IMG/VR virus record: IMGVR_UViG_3300048694_001042
Span: 1 to 64,000 of that record
DNA from: a virus
Length of the DNA stretch: 64,000 nucleotides
Reading direction: 5' to 3' (one strand)
Position numbers and translations under genes: made by a program. Shown piece by piece: positions 42,646-48,699 of this stretch. Each line of letters opens with the position of its first letter. Positions within the stretch are counted from its first letter, which is position 1. The notes beneath the pieces are model-generated. The model did not search any database, had not been told where the DNA came from, and saw nothing but the letters and a program-made list of their open reading frames with translations.

Positions 42646-43106
42646 AGAAAGTCTACTATGAAAAGATCGGGCGCAAATATGTGCCTGTTAGCGAGTACGA
42701 TGGCGATTATCATCTGAGTTTTCCTAAAGGTAATCACCTTGTTATGTGTTATCCTGGTGGCTCCTCACGTAGGTTCAACGTCGAACCTGCCCTGGCTCCA
42801 ATGATTGCTGCCGGCCGCTTTGCTGAAGACAAAATGTGTGAAGCTGTTTATGAGGCAGCTTCCATGCATCGCCAAGAGCACCAAGGCACAGAGCTAACCC
42901 CCGAGCAACTTTGCGCCTGGCGCAATTTTGAAAAAGTCATGGGCGAGCGTGGCAAGTATGTGCAATTCAAAAGCACACACGACATTGTAGGAGCTGGACT
43001 TCGGGTGTTGGAAAAAGAAGCCGCTGAACTCATGACACACCCAGCAGTTCGTGACGCCTACGAACAGTTCCAAGCAGTTTGCAAATTGGTTAAACAAACC
43101 AGTTGA
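42642..43106 (+). CDS. Hypothetical phage protein
   Basis: A 154-residue protein. The N-terminal 60 residues are beta-rich with a FPKGNHLVMCYPGGSSRR stretch; the remainder is helical. It overlaps its upstream neighbour by 4 nt, and the promoter of the next unit begins inside its 3' end. Function unknown. Confidence 0.7.
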   Translation: MKKVYYEKIGRKYVPVSEYDGDYHLSFPKGNHLVMCYPGGSSRRFNVEPALAPMIAAGRFAEDKMCEAVYEAASMHRQEHQGTELTPEQLCAWRNFEKVMGERGKYVQFKSTHDIVGAGLRVLEKEAAELMTHPAVRDAYEQFQAVCKLVKQTS

Positions 43107-43130
43107 CATCTACGCAATCTGTTGTATAAT
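43103..43130 (+). promoter_or_regulatory. Promoter of the structured leader RNA
   Basis: TTGACA (43103-43108), 16-nt spacer, TATAAT (43125-43130). Transcription should start at about 43136-43137, the first base of the long closing helix of the RNA. Confidence 0.8.
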
Positions 43131-43135
43131 CGCTA

Positions 43136-43291
43136 GGCATGGTCCAGGAGGTTGTGCTGCTCAATGGAGAAAGCGGAAACGATTGGTAACCTAGGTCCGC
43201 TAGAACCCGTGGCAAGTGAGCGTAAGTCACAGAGGTGAGACACTGTCTTGGAGAAATCCAAAACCCAGGCTGGTACCCTGGGGAGTATGCC
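43136..43291 (+). ncRNA. Structured leader or non-coding RNA, unknown class
   Basis: About 156 nt without a convincing reading frame. GGCAT (43136-43140) can pair with ATGCC (43287-43291), closing the whole fold. Inside are AGGTT/AACCT (43149-43153 with 43188-43192), CAAT/ATTG (43162-43165 with 43182-43185), GTGA/TCAC (43216-43219 with 43227-43230), TTGGA-GAAA-TCCAA (43248-43261), and CCCAGG/CCTGGG (43264-43269 with 43277-43282). CCAGG at 43144-43148 can compete for the same CCTGG, so two folds are possible. No T-tract follows. It may be a riboswitch-like leader of the gene at 43323 or a stable RNA. I do not recognise tRNA, tmRNA, RNase P or a named riboswitch. Confidence 0.6.
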
Positions 43292-43322
43292 TTAAAGAAC
43301 TAAACAGTGAAAGGAATGAAAC

Positions 43323-43631
43323 ATGTCTGTTGAAATTGCGGTTTCTGCGTTGAGTATGCCGCAGTCCCTCGACTCTCTTAAATTGGAAACGCCCTTGACC
43401 ATGCACCGTGTTGTTTTCGAAATCTCGTCAGTTGAAACATGGTACAAGATAATGGCCGAAGCAAGAGTGCAATTCGGCAAGAACTGGCGTGCTCAACCCA
43501 GAGTCAAGCGCAGACTCACCAGCTGGAGGAACACCACTCTAAAGGTTTGGTTTGAAGTGCCAGACTCGACTTTTGCAACCTGGTGTGCAGTTAAATTGGG
43601 TGTTCAAGCTGTGGGAGTAGTCAATAAATAA
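43323..43631 (+). CDS. Protein downstream of the structured RNA
   Basis: A 102-residue protein with a GAAAGGAA ribosome site. The C-terminal half is basic and aromatic-rich (WRAQPRVKRRLTSWRNTTLKVW). It is the only gene between the structured leader and the next late box. Function unknown. Confidence 0.7.
   Translation: MSVEIAVSALSMPQSLDSLKLETPLTMHRVVFEISSVETWYKIMAEARVQFGKNWRAQPRVKRRLTSWRNTTLKVWFEVPDSTFATWCAVKLGVQAVGVVNK
43623..43630 (+). promoter_or_regulatory. Late-type box, leaderless
   Basis: AATAAATA, with the next ATG (43636) 5 nt downstream, exactly at the expected late transcript start. No ribosome site is present. Confidence 0.55.
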
Positions 43632-43635
43632 ATCT

Positions 43636-45072
43636 ATGTTTCTCTCATGGTTAATGATGGGCGTGGCACTGAGTCTCAGTGTTATCGCCGCTTTTTATAG
43701 TATAGCAGGTTTGGCTGCTATTTTTGCCGCGGCGGTGGTTCCTATTGTGGTAATGGGAACAATATTAGAAGTCGCCAAGCTCACTGTCACAGTTTGGTTA
43801 CACGAGTACTGGCCACGGTGCCGATTCCTTATGAAGGCATACCTGGTACCTGCGGTGGCATTGCTTGCTTTTATTACCAGTATGGGTATATTTGGATTTC
43901 TAAGCAAAGCACACAGTGACCAGGGCATGGTGTCAGGTGACGTGCAAGCCAAGATTGCCATTTACGATGAAAAAATTCAAACCGAACGGGAGAACATTGA
44001 TGCAAATCGCAAGGCGCTTAAACAACTTGATGAGGCAGTGGACCAAGTTATGGCACGCTCAACAGATGAAAAAGGGGCCGATAAGGCCGTGGCAATACGG
44101 CGAGCCCAGCAAAAAGATCGCGCTCGTTTACTTGAAGAAATTAGCAAGAGCCAATTGCGGATTACCGCACTCAACGAAGAACGAGCTCCAATTGCGGCGG
44201 AAGTACGAAAAGTGGAGGCCGAAGTGGGCCCTATCAAGTATATCGCCGCCTTGGTGTATGGGGATAACACCGATGCAAACATTTTAGAACGGGCAGTGCG
44301 TTGGGTCATAATTATTCTAGTAATTGTATTTGACCCATTGGCAATTATGATGCTGTTGGCTGCAACCGAAAGCTTCAAGTGGGAGAAAGAGCCGCCTGTG
44401 GCAGAAACTGTAGTTGATGATGACAAGATTCGAGAAACTGCCAAAGAGCAAGAGCCCGAAATACCAGCGGAGCCTGTGCCCGAAGTTGAAAAGTCTTGGC
44501 AAGAAAAGTATCCATATCTCACTAAACCTTTTGTGCATTTCAGTAATACCAAACCGGTAGTCTATTCGGGCAATCCTGCAGAGTTTCAACAACCTTGGCC
44601 GGAAGAGAAAAAACAAGAGTTGGTCAAGGTAATGAAGGATATTTTCCCGTCGGACGATTGGTTAGACGGCGAAGAGCATGGTTCAGATGAAGAAAAGCAA
44701 GCCATAAGAGAATGGAAAGCGGCTAATCCTGAACTCACAGTAAAAGCACAGCGAGAACTGCTGGCACGTGGTGAAATTACCGAACTACCTTGGGCAAGAA
44801 AACCCAATTCAACTTTTGGATTTGTGTTTCCTTGGAGCCCAGAAAAAGGCGACACATTTATCAAAACAGATGTGGTGCCCAATGCAATGTACAAGTTTAA
44901 CGGAACTCAATGGATGGCCGTTGACAAATCTGTGTTAGACAGTTATACTCATGATACTGCATACATTGATTATCTTATCTCCAAAATATCATCAGGTGAA
45001 TATGATCCTGAGCTATTGTCTGAAGACTTGCGTGATCAAGTAGCTGAACGTATCAAACAAACTGACGCATGA
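43636..45072 (+). CDS. Large membrane protein with coiled coil
   Basis: A 478-residue protein. Three membrane segments lie in the first 95 residues, followed by a long charged coiled coil (about 110-200), a fourth membrane segment (about 218-240, WVIIILVIVFDPLAIMMLLA), and a soluble acidic C-terminal half that includes a late GFVFPWSPEKGDTFIKTD segment typical of tail or virion modules. Similar membrane proteins occur in T4-like phages of aquatic bacteria without a known role. The stop overlaps clpX by 4 nt. Confidence 0.75.
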   Translation: MFLSWLMMGVALSLSVIAAFYSIAGLAAIFAAAVVPIVVMGTILEVAKLTVTVWLHEYWPRCRFLMKAYLVPAVALLAFITSMGIFGFLSKAHSDQGMVSGDVQAKIAIYDEKIQTERENIDANRKALKQLDEAVDQVMARSTDEKGADKAVAIRRAQQKDRARLLEEISKSQLRITALNEERAPIAAEVRKVEAEVGPIKYIAALVYGDNTDANILERAVRWVIIILVIVFDPLAIMMLLAATESFKWEKEPPVAETVVDDDKIRETAKEQEPEIPAEPVPEVEKSWQEKYPYLTKPFVHFSNTKPVVYSGNPAEFQQPWPEEKKQELVKVMKDIFPSDDWLDGEEHGSDEEKQAIREWKAANPELTVKAQRELLARGEITELPWARKPNSTFGFVFPWSPEKGDTFIKTDVVPNAMYKFNGTQWMAVDKSVLDSYTHDTAYIDYLISKISSGEYDPELLSEDLRDQVAERIKQTDA

Positions 45073-46304
45073 AAACAACTGAAAATTTAGATAACTGTAG
45101 TTTTTGTGGAAAACACAAAGATCAAGTAGTTAAGCTCATTGTGGGCGCCGAAGTTGCAATTTGCAACGAGTGTGTGGACTTGTGCCAGACTTTGCTAGAA
45201 GATGCACCTGTTGCCAAAGCTGACAAAACGCCCGGTGCGCTTGATCCTAGAGAAATCAAACGTCACCTTGACGAGTATGTGATTGGGCAAGACCAAGCAA
45301 AAATTGTTCTCAGTGTAGCAGTTACCAACCACTACAAACGAATCAACAACAAAGAAAAACAAACCGAAGTCGAAAAAGCCAACATCCTCATGCTTGGTCC
45401 CACAGGATCAGGAAAAACACTGCTGGCCAGAAGCGTGGCCAGATATTTGGATGTGCCGTTTGTTATTGCAGACGCCACCAGTTTGACTGAAGCAGGATAT
45501 GTGGGTGATGATGTTGAGAGTTTGATCAGTCGGCTGTACGCAGCTTCTGGATTCGACGTTGAAAAAACACAGCGTGGTATTGTGTTTGTGGACGAAATTG
45601 ACAAAATCAGCAGAAAAAGCGAAAGCACAAGTATTACCCGAGACGTGTCGGGCGAAGGCGTGCAACAGGCCCTGCTCAAGTTGGTTGAAGGCACCAAGTG
45701 CAGAATTCAACCAACTGGTGGTCGTAAACATCCAGGCGGGGACATGATCGAAATAGATACCACTGACATTCTGTTCATAGCAGGTGGTGCTTTTGTGGGC
45801 CTGGATAACATTGTTAAAAACCGTATCAAAGGCACCAGCATTGGATTCCAAGCTGAAGTCAACCAAGATACTCCTGGCAAATTAGACATGGTCACGCCCG
45901 ACGATTTGGTACGCTTTGGGTTGATTCCTGAGTTTGTGGGCAGATTCCCCAGTTGGGTAGCATTGCAAGAGTTAACGTTGGAAGATCTCATTTCCATTCT
46001 AACTGAAGTTAAAAACTGCTATGTTGATCAGTATCAATGGTTATTTGACCAAGATCAAGTTGCACTGACATTCGAAACTGACGCACTCAAACGCATAGCT
46101 GAAAATACCATCAAAAACAAAACTGGCGCCCGTGGGCTGCACAGTGAACTGGAGCGTGTGTTATTGCCGCACATGTTTAACTTGCCACGCTATCGAGACA
46201 GCGAAATCAACAGCCTTACAATCACTCAAGACCTGGTAAATAATCCTGTAGAACTAAAGGGATTACATGAACAAGTTGCGAGGAAGGTCAGTACTGGTCA
46301 CTGA
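45069..46304 (+). CDS. clpX: ClpX unfoldase
   Basis: A 411-residue full-length ClpX (E. coli 424). The zinc domain uses Cys10, 13, 32 and 35. Walker A GPTGSGKT is at 110-117, Walker B VFVDEID at 173-179, and IGF at 258-260 is the loop that docks into ClpP, so partnership with a ClpP ring (host or the phage copy at 62876) is possible. It unfolds tagged proteins and feeds them to the protease. Its 3' end overlaps the bS21 gene by 38 nt. Confidence 0.96.
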
Positions 46305-46491
46305 CGACAACATAGAAAAAGCTCTGCGTAAGTTCAAAAAGAAAATCCAAAACTCGGACATTCTTAACGAGCTACGCAAAAGAGAGCATTACGTTAAACC
46401 TACCACCAAGCGCAAACTCAAACGTAGCGCGGCTAAAAATCGCTGGCGTAAAAAGCTGGACGATCAAGCATTGCCCAAGAAGCTATACTAA
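46267..46491 (+). CDS. rpsU: Ribosomal protein bS21 homologue
   Basis: A 74-residue protein matching bS21: [17 protein letters not shown], then RKREHYVKPTTKRK and a basic end. In bacteria bS21 sits near the anti-Shine-Dalgarno end of 16S rRNA on the 30S subunit and helps initiation. Phage bS21 copies may bias host ribosomes toward phage messages, which fits the many leaderless genes here; that link is inference. Confidence 0.85.
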   Translation: MNKLRGRSVLVTDDNIEKALRKFKKKIQNSDILNELRKREHYVKPTTKRKLKRSAAKNRWRKKLDDQALPKKLY

Positions 46492-46730
46492 TGTACGTGG
46501 AGTTCAAGCTACCCGAATCTATTGCTGGTGCGTCATTATTGTTGCTTCGTCGTAGCATACTTGATTGGTCCGAAAAATACCAAATTCCTTACACTGAAAA
46601 AACCATAAAATACACTTACCGCGTGTGTTTTGATAAAGACGAGTCTTATAGTTTTTTTGCAATGACCTATCCACAGACCCGGCACTTTCTCCAATATCGC
46701 ATTGTGTCTGACCTAAATAATAAAATATAA
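46491..46730 (+). CDS. Small phage protein
   Basis: A 79-residue protein starting at the last base of the bS21 stop. It has a MYVEFKLPESIAG start and a KYTYRVCFDKDESYSFFAMTY strand region. Similar small proteins occur next to chaperone or replication genes in T4-like phages. Function unknown. Confidence 0.7.
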   Translation: MYVEFKLPESIAGASLLLLRRSILDWSEKYQIPYTEKTIKYTYRVCFDKDESYSFFAMTYPQTRHFLQYRIVSDLNNKI

Positions 46731-46742
46731 TTTGATTTCGTG

Positions 46743-46806
46743 TATAATAAATAACAATGTAGCGCCGATGGTCGGGCTACAAAATTAATCTTGCTTTTCG
46801 AAGGAG
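46743..46806 (+). promoter_or_regulatory. dnaK promoter and two-part leader, ROSE-like
   Basis: TATAAT (46743-46748) overlaps an AATAAATA late-type box (46746-46753). A hairpin (GTAGC/GCTAC with a bulged G and CCG-ATGGT-CGG tip) spans 46759-46780, starting at the predicted late transcript start. CTTGCTT (46790-46796) can pair with the AAGGAG ribosome site (46801-46806) around a TTCG loop, leaving one G unpaired, as in ROSE thermometers. Confidence 0.6.
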
Positions 46807-46812
46807 AACACA

Positions 46813-48699
46813 ATGAGCAAAGTAATCGGTATCGATCTGGGTACCACAAATTCATGCGTAGCCGTGGTTGAAAACGGCAATTCCCGAGTAATTGAAAACA
46901 GCGAAGGTGCTAGAACAACTCCTAGTGTTGTTGCTTACACCAGCGACGATGTGCTGGTCGGTGCAAGCGCCAAGCGTCAAGCAATTACCAATCCCAAAAA
47001 CACCATTTACGCAGCCAAGCGATTGATCGGACGCAAGTTCCGCGAAGATGCAGTGCAGAAGGACATCAACTTGATGCCGTATAGCATTGTGGAAAATGAC
47101 AATGGTGATGCTTGGGTTCAAGCTGGCGATCGCCGACTGGCACCTCCACAAATCTCTGCAGAAGTTCTGCGTAAAATGAAAAAGACAGCAGAAGACTATC
47201 TTGGCACAGAAGTCACACAAGCTGTTATCACTGTCCCTGCTTACTTCAACGACAGCCAACGTCAAGCTACCAAAGATGCTGGACGTATCGCTGGACTAGA
47301 AGTATTGCGTATTATCAACGAGCCAACTGCGGCTGCACTAGCATACGGCGTTGACAAAGCCGATAAAAAGGATCGCAAGATTGCTGTGTACGACTTGGGC
47401 GGCGGCACGTTTGACGTAAGCATCATTGAAATCGCCAACATTGACAATGAAAAGCAAATCGAAGTATTGAGCACCAACGGAGACACCTTCCTGGGCGGTG
47501 AAGACTTTGACCAGCGCATCATGGACTTCTTGGTCGACGAATTCAAGCGGGATACTGCTGTGGACTTGACCCGAGACGTACTGGCCTTGCAACGCTTGAA
47601 AGAAGCTGCTGAAAAAGCCAAGATTGAACTGTCAAGCAGCACTGCTACAGACGTCAACTTGCCTTATGTCACTGCTGATGCTAGTGGTCCCAAGCACATG
47701 AACATCAAGCTCACTCGTGCCAAACTAGAGAGTTTGGTGGACGAGTTGATCCAACGCAGTATTGAACCTTGCCGCATTGCAATGAAAGATGCCGGTGTCA
47801 CTGCTGATGAAATTGATGAAGTTATTCTTGTTGGTGGCCAAACTCGCATGCCCCGAGTACAAGAAGCTGTGGAAAAACTGTTTGGCAAAGCACCGCGCCG
47901 GGATGTTAACCCTGACGAAGCAGTGGCTGCAGGCGCTGCTATTCAAGGAAGTGTGTTGGCCGGTGACCGCAAAGACGTGTTGCTGTTGGATGTTACACCG
48001 TTGAGCTTGGGCATTGAAACCATGGGTGGTGTGTTTACTAAAATCATCCAAAAGAACACAACCATTCCTACCAAGGGCACACAAACATTCAGTACTGCTG
48101 AAGACAATCAGCCTGCTGTGACCATCAAGGTTGGACAAGGTGAGCGTGAGCTGTTCAAGTACAACAAAGAACTTGGTTTGTTTAATCTAGACGGTATTGC
48201 TCCTGCACCACGTGGCATGCCGCAAATTGAAGTTACCTTTGACATTGACGCCAATGGCATTATGCATATTTCGGCCAAAGACAAAGGCACCGGCAAAGAA
48301 AACAAAATCACTATCAAGAGTGACTCAGGCTTGAAAGAGGATGAAATTCAACGCATGGTTCGTGAAGCTGAAGACAATGCCGAAGCTGACAAGAAACAAG
48401 TTGAATTGATTCAAGCTCGCAACACCGCAGAAGGTACGTTGCATGGGTTCCGCAAGGACTTTGATGCCTACAAGGATCAGGTCACAGAAGAAGAACGCAA
48501 CCGAGCTGAACAAGCACTTCAAGATCTTGACACTGCTATTGGCGGTGATGACGTTGAGGAAATCAACGCAAAAACAACAGAATTGTACCAAGCTATCGGT
48601 CCTATCACCGGTAAAAAGTACGAAGCCGAGCAAAAGGCCAAAGCGGAATCCGAGAAAAAGGATGATGATGTGGTCGATGCCGAAGTCAAGGCTGCTTGA
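46813..48699 (+). CDS. dnaK: DnaK (Hsp70) chaperone
   Basis: A 628-residue full-length Hsp70 (E. coli 638). The N-terminal ATPase has [13 protein letters not shown] at 5-17, a [11 protein letters not shown] phosphate loop near 194 and a VGGQTRMP loop near 338. The linker [16 protein letters not shown] near 385-400 and the substrate domain are intact, and the acidic C-terminus ends in VVDAEVKAA. No dnaJ or grpE is in the window, so it probably works with host co-chaperones. The leader may respond to temperature. Confidence 0.97.

Follow-up and report, generated by a model that had tools for sequence, protein, structure and literature searches.

The window, a 64,000-nt stretch from a virus record of 88,493 bases (IMGVR_UViG_3300048694_001042), encodes a genuine RNA whose family had not been described before; it is the first member of this phage RNA family to be reported. 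The RNA is best read as the leader of the mRNA for a 102-aa gene, rather than as a free 156-nt RNA, because its conserved structure extends to the ribosome-binding site (RBS) of that gene, which starts at 43323, and because a plus-strand scan between the RNA and the gene found no terminator. From promoter to start codon, the leader measures about 185 nt (187). The earlier note's proposal of a structured RNA of unknown class under a strong promoter was borne out; its self-contained RNA of 156 nt was not, as the structure runs to the RBS. Phage-type genes in the record include those for a DnaB-like helicase, ribonucleotide reductase, a tail-spike-like protein, an ATP-dependent DNA ligase, and ClpX.

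Identification of the RNA family

The first relatives were obtained as homologues of the 102-aa protein in IMG/VR, upstream of whose genes the same RNA was seen, and further relatives came from a pattern on the 3' hairpin of the RNA. Ten relatives were used to build a covariance model, R1. A gene-blind pattern of the core, CCGTGGC...AANTC...GG.TG.R.CA, returned 98 IMG/VR stretches. R1 confirmed 71 of the 74 new IMG/VR loci from this pattern, with E-values of about 1e-51 to 1e-5, and all 15 loci of a further set within the same range. A second model, R2, was re-modelled after a mutual-information scan of the R1 alignment. R2 detected the RNA in contigs that the RNA pattern had missed and recognised the most distant relative, L008, which is in neither model, at E ~7e-7. 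Overall, the covariance models confirmed the RNA in more than 100 IMG/VR phage contigs, some of which possibly sample the same phage twice, and 80 distinct RNA sequences were aligned.

Searching 85,000 bacterial and archaeal species genomes with the core pattern yielded 87 stretches. Of the 80 loci examined, none was confirmed by the model, and bacterial or prophage members were rejected on this basis. Searches of Rfam 15 gave no match in the window at the gathering score; over the RNA itself there was no hit at E-values up to 10, nor was there one for the RNA of six diverse relatives at E-values up to 5. A search of one literature collection found no paper on such an RNA. The earlier statement that no known RNA family was evident held. 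The absence of a reading frame held as well: each frame was open in at most 23 of the 82 members, and a coding sequence within the RNA was rejected since the members share no frame.

Promoter and 5' end

As a sequence, the predicted promoter is well established. It is the perfect consensus described earlier (TTGACA-N16-TATAAT), and similar promoters precede the relatives: matches of at least 9/12 were present before 82 of 85, versus 11% of random windows, and matches of at least 10/12 before 78 of 85, versus 2% of random windows. The transcript start is predicted at approximately 43136-43138, that is, at the conserved 5' end of the RNA. In the window (43136-43140) and in the relatives, a 5' GCAT (GCCT in one lineage) is nearly invariant at this predicted start and has no covarying partner.

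Features of the leader and its gene. Positions are those of the window.
Feature	Position	Strand	Basis
Sigma-70 promoter, TTGACA (43103-43108), N16, TATAAT (43125-43130)	43103-43130	+	12/12 match
Whole leader RNA, structured element plus RBS of the 102-aa gene	43136-43322	+	covariance-model matches, pair counts
P2a 5' strand TGTG, partner CACA (43228-43231)	43153-43156	+	mutual information (second scan, after R2); swap test 0/20000; double changes in 3/4 pairs
P2b 5' strand GCTCA, partner TGAGC (43217-43221)	43159-43163	+	mutual-information scan; swap test, own partner fits better than swapped (0/20000 permutations as good); double changes in 5/5 pairs
P3 hairpin AGCGGA/TCCGCT	43172-43201	+	double changes in all modelled pairs
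Conserved core CCGTGGCA; GGCA (43211-43214) is the P1* 5' strand	43207-43214	+	covaries with 43288
P2b 3' strand (43217-43221), conserved GTAAGT bulge (43222-43227), P2a 3' strand (43228-43231)	43217-43231	+	mutual information, swap tests, pair counts
PK2 5' strand, CACTG (43241-43245) and TCTT (43246-43249), after conserved core GAGGTGAGA	43241-43249	+	
P5 hairpin GGA-GAAA-TCC with GNRA tetraloop, then conserved AAAACC	43250-43259	+	double changes in 5/6 modelled pairs
P6 hairpin CCCAGG/CCTGGG	43264-43282	+	double changes in 6/6 pairs
P1* 3' strand TGCC, partner GGCA (43211-43214)	43288-43291	+	98.1% paired, versus 81.8% for the 5' GGCAT alternative
PK2 3' strand, AAGA (43295-43298) and CAGTG (43305-43309), adjoining the Shine-Dalgarno sequence	43295-43309	+	swap test 0/20000 permutations
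Shine-Dalgarno AAAGGA	43310-43315	+	sequence; conserved beside CAGTG in most relatives
102-aa gene downstream of the leader; basic product, predicted E-H-H-E-H-E core	43323-43631	+	
Conserved unpaired core segments CCGUGGC, GUAAGU, GGUGNGNCA, AAAACC			
Core segments CCGUGGC, GUAAGU, GGUGAGACA			

Structure of the RNA

The minimum free energy of the RNA was ordinary compared with shuffled sequences (z = -0.13). The case for a structure was therefore made by comparison. In the R1 alignment, 93.3% of the cells pair, and 307 cells carry double changes, versus 77 in shuffled alignments and at most 48 in slid ones. In the final structure of 35 pairs, 94.1% of the cells are paired, 478 carry double changes (118.5 shuffled, at most 87 slid), and double changes occur in 30 of the 35 pairs, the alignment being fitted to P2b, P3, P5, and P6 and not to P2a or P1*. 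Covariation among relatives, on which the earlier note had staked its proposal, is therefore present, and the comparison of sequences demonstrates the predicted fold. The first mutual-information scan ran on the R1 alignment, which was not fitted to P2 or P1*. The MIp z-scores and swap tests ignore phylogeny, and those swap tests that concern PK2b and P2a were rerun with each type represented by a single member.

P2a and P2b form a long-range stem that encloses P3. P2b occurs in the relatives as GTCTTC/GAAGAC, TCTCA/TGAGA, ACTGT/ACAGT, and GGTTA/TAACC. P3 is peripheral and is short or absent in some relatives (L227 and L290 were examined). Three hairpins in the window proved to be real and to covary: AGCGGA/TCCGCT (P3), CCCAGG/CCTGGG (P6), and the GAAA hairpin (P5), which has a GNRA loop in most relatives. 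P5 extends to TTGGA/TCCAA if PK2b is open.

The closing helix assigned previously, between GGCAT at 43136-43140 and ATGCC at 43287-43291, could form in the window and has not been kept by evolution: 23 of the 80 members have its outer pair, and 15 cannot form its A-U pair. The ATGCC strand covaries instead with the internal GGCA, forming P1*. Positions 43214 and 43288 covary as A-U in 67 members, U-A in 9, and G-C in 1; L008 has a G-C pair there. On a tree of the downstream protein, the U-A exchange (GGC-A/U-GCC to GGC-U/A-GCC) needs two changes, weakly resolved branches leaving one origin not strictly ruled out. The helices interlock: P1* crosses P2, and PK2 crosses P1*.

Two candidate elements were rejected along the way. 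In the first, PK1, the 5' strand GTCCAGG would form a pseudoknot with the P3 loop; it was discarded since its own pairing was no better than swapped pairings. The second, an early helix named P4 (GTGG with TCAC, in R1), gave way to P2a and P1* in the light of the mutual-information scans.

A pseudoknot at the ribosome-binding site

The structure does not end at 43291, as had been supposed; a covarying pseudoknot, PK2, continues to 43309, beside the Shine-Dalgarno sequence. Sequence comparison firmly places this predicted helix at the RBS. In its 3' strand, a short spacer separates AAGA from CAGTG. The second half of PK2 varies freely while staying complementary, as in TCCTA/TAGGA, TCTTA/TAAGA, TCTCA/TGAGA, TCCCT/AGGGA, TCCAA/TTGGA, CCCTG/CAGGG, and CCTC/GAGG. 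The mean pairing energy was -4.28 kcal/mol for own strands and -2.33 kcal/mol for swapped strands, and the swap test gave the same result when each type contributed a single member.

The reverse complement of PK2a was found before the gene in all 48 members with CACTG and all 3 with CACCT. It was lacking in the 20 members with CAAGG or CAAAG, where by our reading a short (G/A)GA/TCT match is all that is left; the CAAGG lineage has a PK2a of only about 3 pairs. Later relatives, found by the gene alone, mostly obey the PK2 rule. In the lineage of L010, L084, and L050, PK2a is CACCT/AGGTG and the spacer to the start codon is longer; these three loci have a short upstream frame, MYQ[L/F][G/R]DL-stop, after the RNA and ahead of the gene.

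The switch suggested by the earlier note fared differently in its two parts. Only 5 of 71 members would allow CCAGG and CCCAGG to compete for one CCTGG, and this part was dropped; a switching leader could still operate through PK2.

The downstream gene

The 102-aa protein is basic, with a pI of 10 in the window and a median net charge of +5 in the family, and shares the conserved stretch KNWRxQPxVKRKL. Its predicted structure comprises a folded E-H-H-E-H-E core and a low-confidence N-terminus. Profile and fold searches returned nothing significant, including no RNA-binding family, and the family has no single-strand-binding relative in Pfam or PHROG. The gene had no match in 50,697 phage records, and no relative was found in cultured phages.

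The RNA and the gene are linked one to one. A gene-first search gave 80 gene loci, and R2 placed the RNA directly upstream in 78, or 78 of the 79 testable loci. One of the two others, L296, is cut at the contig edge; L272 is a true absence. Every RNA with readable downstream sequence leads to the same protein family, including RNAs from the gene-blind pattern; L040, L113, and L048 are cut by or near contig ends in this count. Each of 20 phage records tested, up to 364 kb, contained exactly one confident copy of the RNA, and the structure was found only in the leader of the 102-aa gene.

Several features around the gene were observed in individual loci. In L272 (positions 1480-1770), the copy follows directly on the upstream gene, and the dozen residues usual at the N-terminus are missing. 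In L052, L068, L087, and L069, a segment matching the common N-terminus (MSVEIETS...) is present but does not share a frame with the remainder of the protein; these loci have GTGTTTATTAAAATAGTGACCTCT followed by an ATG in another frame, which could mean a leader peptide, a frameshift, or a start codon that has moved.

In the window, the 102-aa gene is followed at 43636-45072 by a gene for a 478-aa protein with a predicted membrane-like N-terminus and a coiled-coil-like middle, homologues of which also occur in phages without the RNA (e.g., L011, L016, and L022). A frame at 46267-46491 reads, by eye, like ribosomal protein bS21 and lies, within 45069-48699, beside ClpX and a frame reading like DnaK; relatives carry frames resembling HSP20 and ClpS. 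A translation and protein-quality-control cluster thus appears to lie beside the RNA in large phages. Phages encoding bS21 were linked to Bacteroidetes by the authors who described them, in a paper that does not mention ClpX or ligase (PMC9723584).

Possible functions of the leader

Because its last helix lies against the RBS, the leader probably controls the amount of 102-aa protein made. Similarly, since PK2 has its 3' strand right beside the Shine-Dalgarno sequence, formation of PK2 should hinder 30S binding. Judging by this geometry, PK2 is likely to repress translation, and with good confidence we take the leader to be under regulation and not constitutive.

The best explanation as a whole is an autoregulated leader of the 102-aa mRNA, a tentative reading whose probability falls somewhat short of even. 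The strong promoter would start the RNA at its first conserved bases, and the RNA would fold into the P2a/P2b stem with P3 at its end, the hairpins P5 and P6, and the crossing helices P1* and PK2. With PK2 formed, binding of the 30S subunit would be hindered; with PK2 freed, translation would be allowed. The basic 102-aa product would attach to the conserved core and stabilise PK2, which would turn off further synthesis of the protein. The one-gene, one-copy pattern suggests, by the parallel with T4 gene 32 (PMC535899), that the likeliest effector is the gene's own protein, to which we give nearly an even chance. Counterpoints to autoregulation are the lack of a profile or fold match between the protein and any RNA-binding family, the gene without a leader in L272, and the shortened PK2a of the CAAGG lineage, and the strict linkage to one gene could also reflect inherited synteny.

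The main rival is a small-molecule riboswitch, in which the core would bind a small molecule or ion, lock or free PK2, and set translation. The many conserved unpaired bases of an aptamer-like core with covarying helices argue for it, as does a pseudoknot at the RBS similar to that of preQ1 riboswitches (PMC11625349), the platform reaching the RBS, where it would be expected to affect translation. However, the only gene family downstream is of no metabolic kind and is not one recognised to use, make, or move a ligand. The single copy per record and the lack of a confirmed candidate among the bacterial genomes also weigh against a riboswitch, which we regard as unlikely on balance.

A structured leader could also work with no effector, protecting the 5' end of the mRNA or holding translation at a level that is fixed or is timed co-transcriptionally. 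The predicted transcript start lies right at the conserved 5' end, and PK2 may simply tune initiation from beside the Shine-Dalgarno sequence, but the conserved unpaired core bases exceed the need of a stability element; we consider this explanation improbable. The RNA might instead be excised from the transcript and act in trans as a free regulatory RNA or an RNA-protein particle, perhaps bound to the adjacent basic protein, which would fit its own strong promoter and the basic protein gene next to it. This reading is made less likely, and in our view is likewise improbable, because the conserved structure includes bases up to the Shine-Dalgarno sequence of the gene; the lack of a plus-strand terminator before the gene points the same way. 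Finally, the folding energy would suit an intergenic stretch that has no function and folds by chance, but compensatory covariation is extensive across the 80 distinct sequences and excludes a chance fold, reducing the probability of this explanation to practically nothing.

Relation to known systems and significance

Among known leaders, the pseudoknot of the T4 gene 32 leader is far smaller. The gene 32 operator is likewise a phage mRNA leader with a pseudoknot upstream of its gene, whose own nucleic-acid-binding product represses translation (PMC535899). In contrast, the crossing helices described here span ~155 nt, the 102-aa protein matches no single-strand-binding family, and binding by this product is putative. 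The preQ1 riboswitches are also knotted leaders with a pseudoknot at or beside the RBS (PMC11625349). The present fold is larger and differently wired, has no Rfam match, and precedes no biosynthesis or transport gene.

Autoregulatory leaders of ribosomal proteins (reviewed in PMC10931766) are structured leaders tied to genes for basic products. They resemble the present leader in that a single leader goes with a single gene family, the basic product of which could bind it; the differences are that our RNA matches no Rfam leader and that the 102-aa product is not a recognised ribosomal protein. Lastly, GOLLD, ROOL, and OLE are conserved, ornate RNAs associated with bacteria or phages that were also first seen by comparative genomics (PMC12286853). 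They are much larger, whereas this RNA is a short leader of one gene with no Rfam match to them.

It is rather probable that the family represents a new, so far phage-only class of regulatory leader, whose interlocking pseudoknots would sense the phage's own basic protein or a ligand during infection and gate the RBS. A well-supported RNA class that lacks a database entry is worth having. This one is ready for testing, given a fold proven by covariation, a strong promoter, a single target gene, and natural compensatory variants of PK2. The leader would reveal by what means large uncultivated phages adjust the amount or the timing of one widely retained protein, and it offers a way into the function of a protein family without known relatives.
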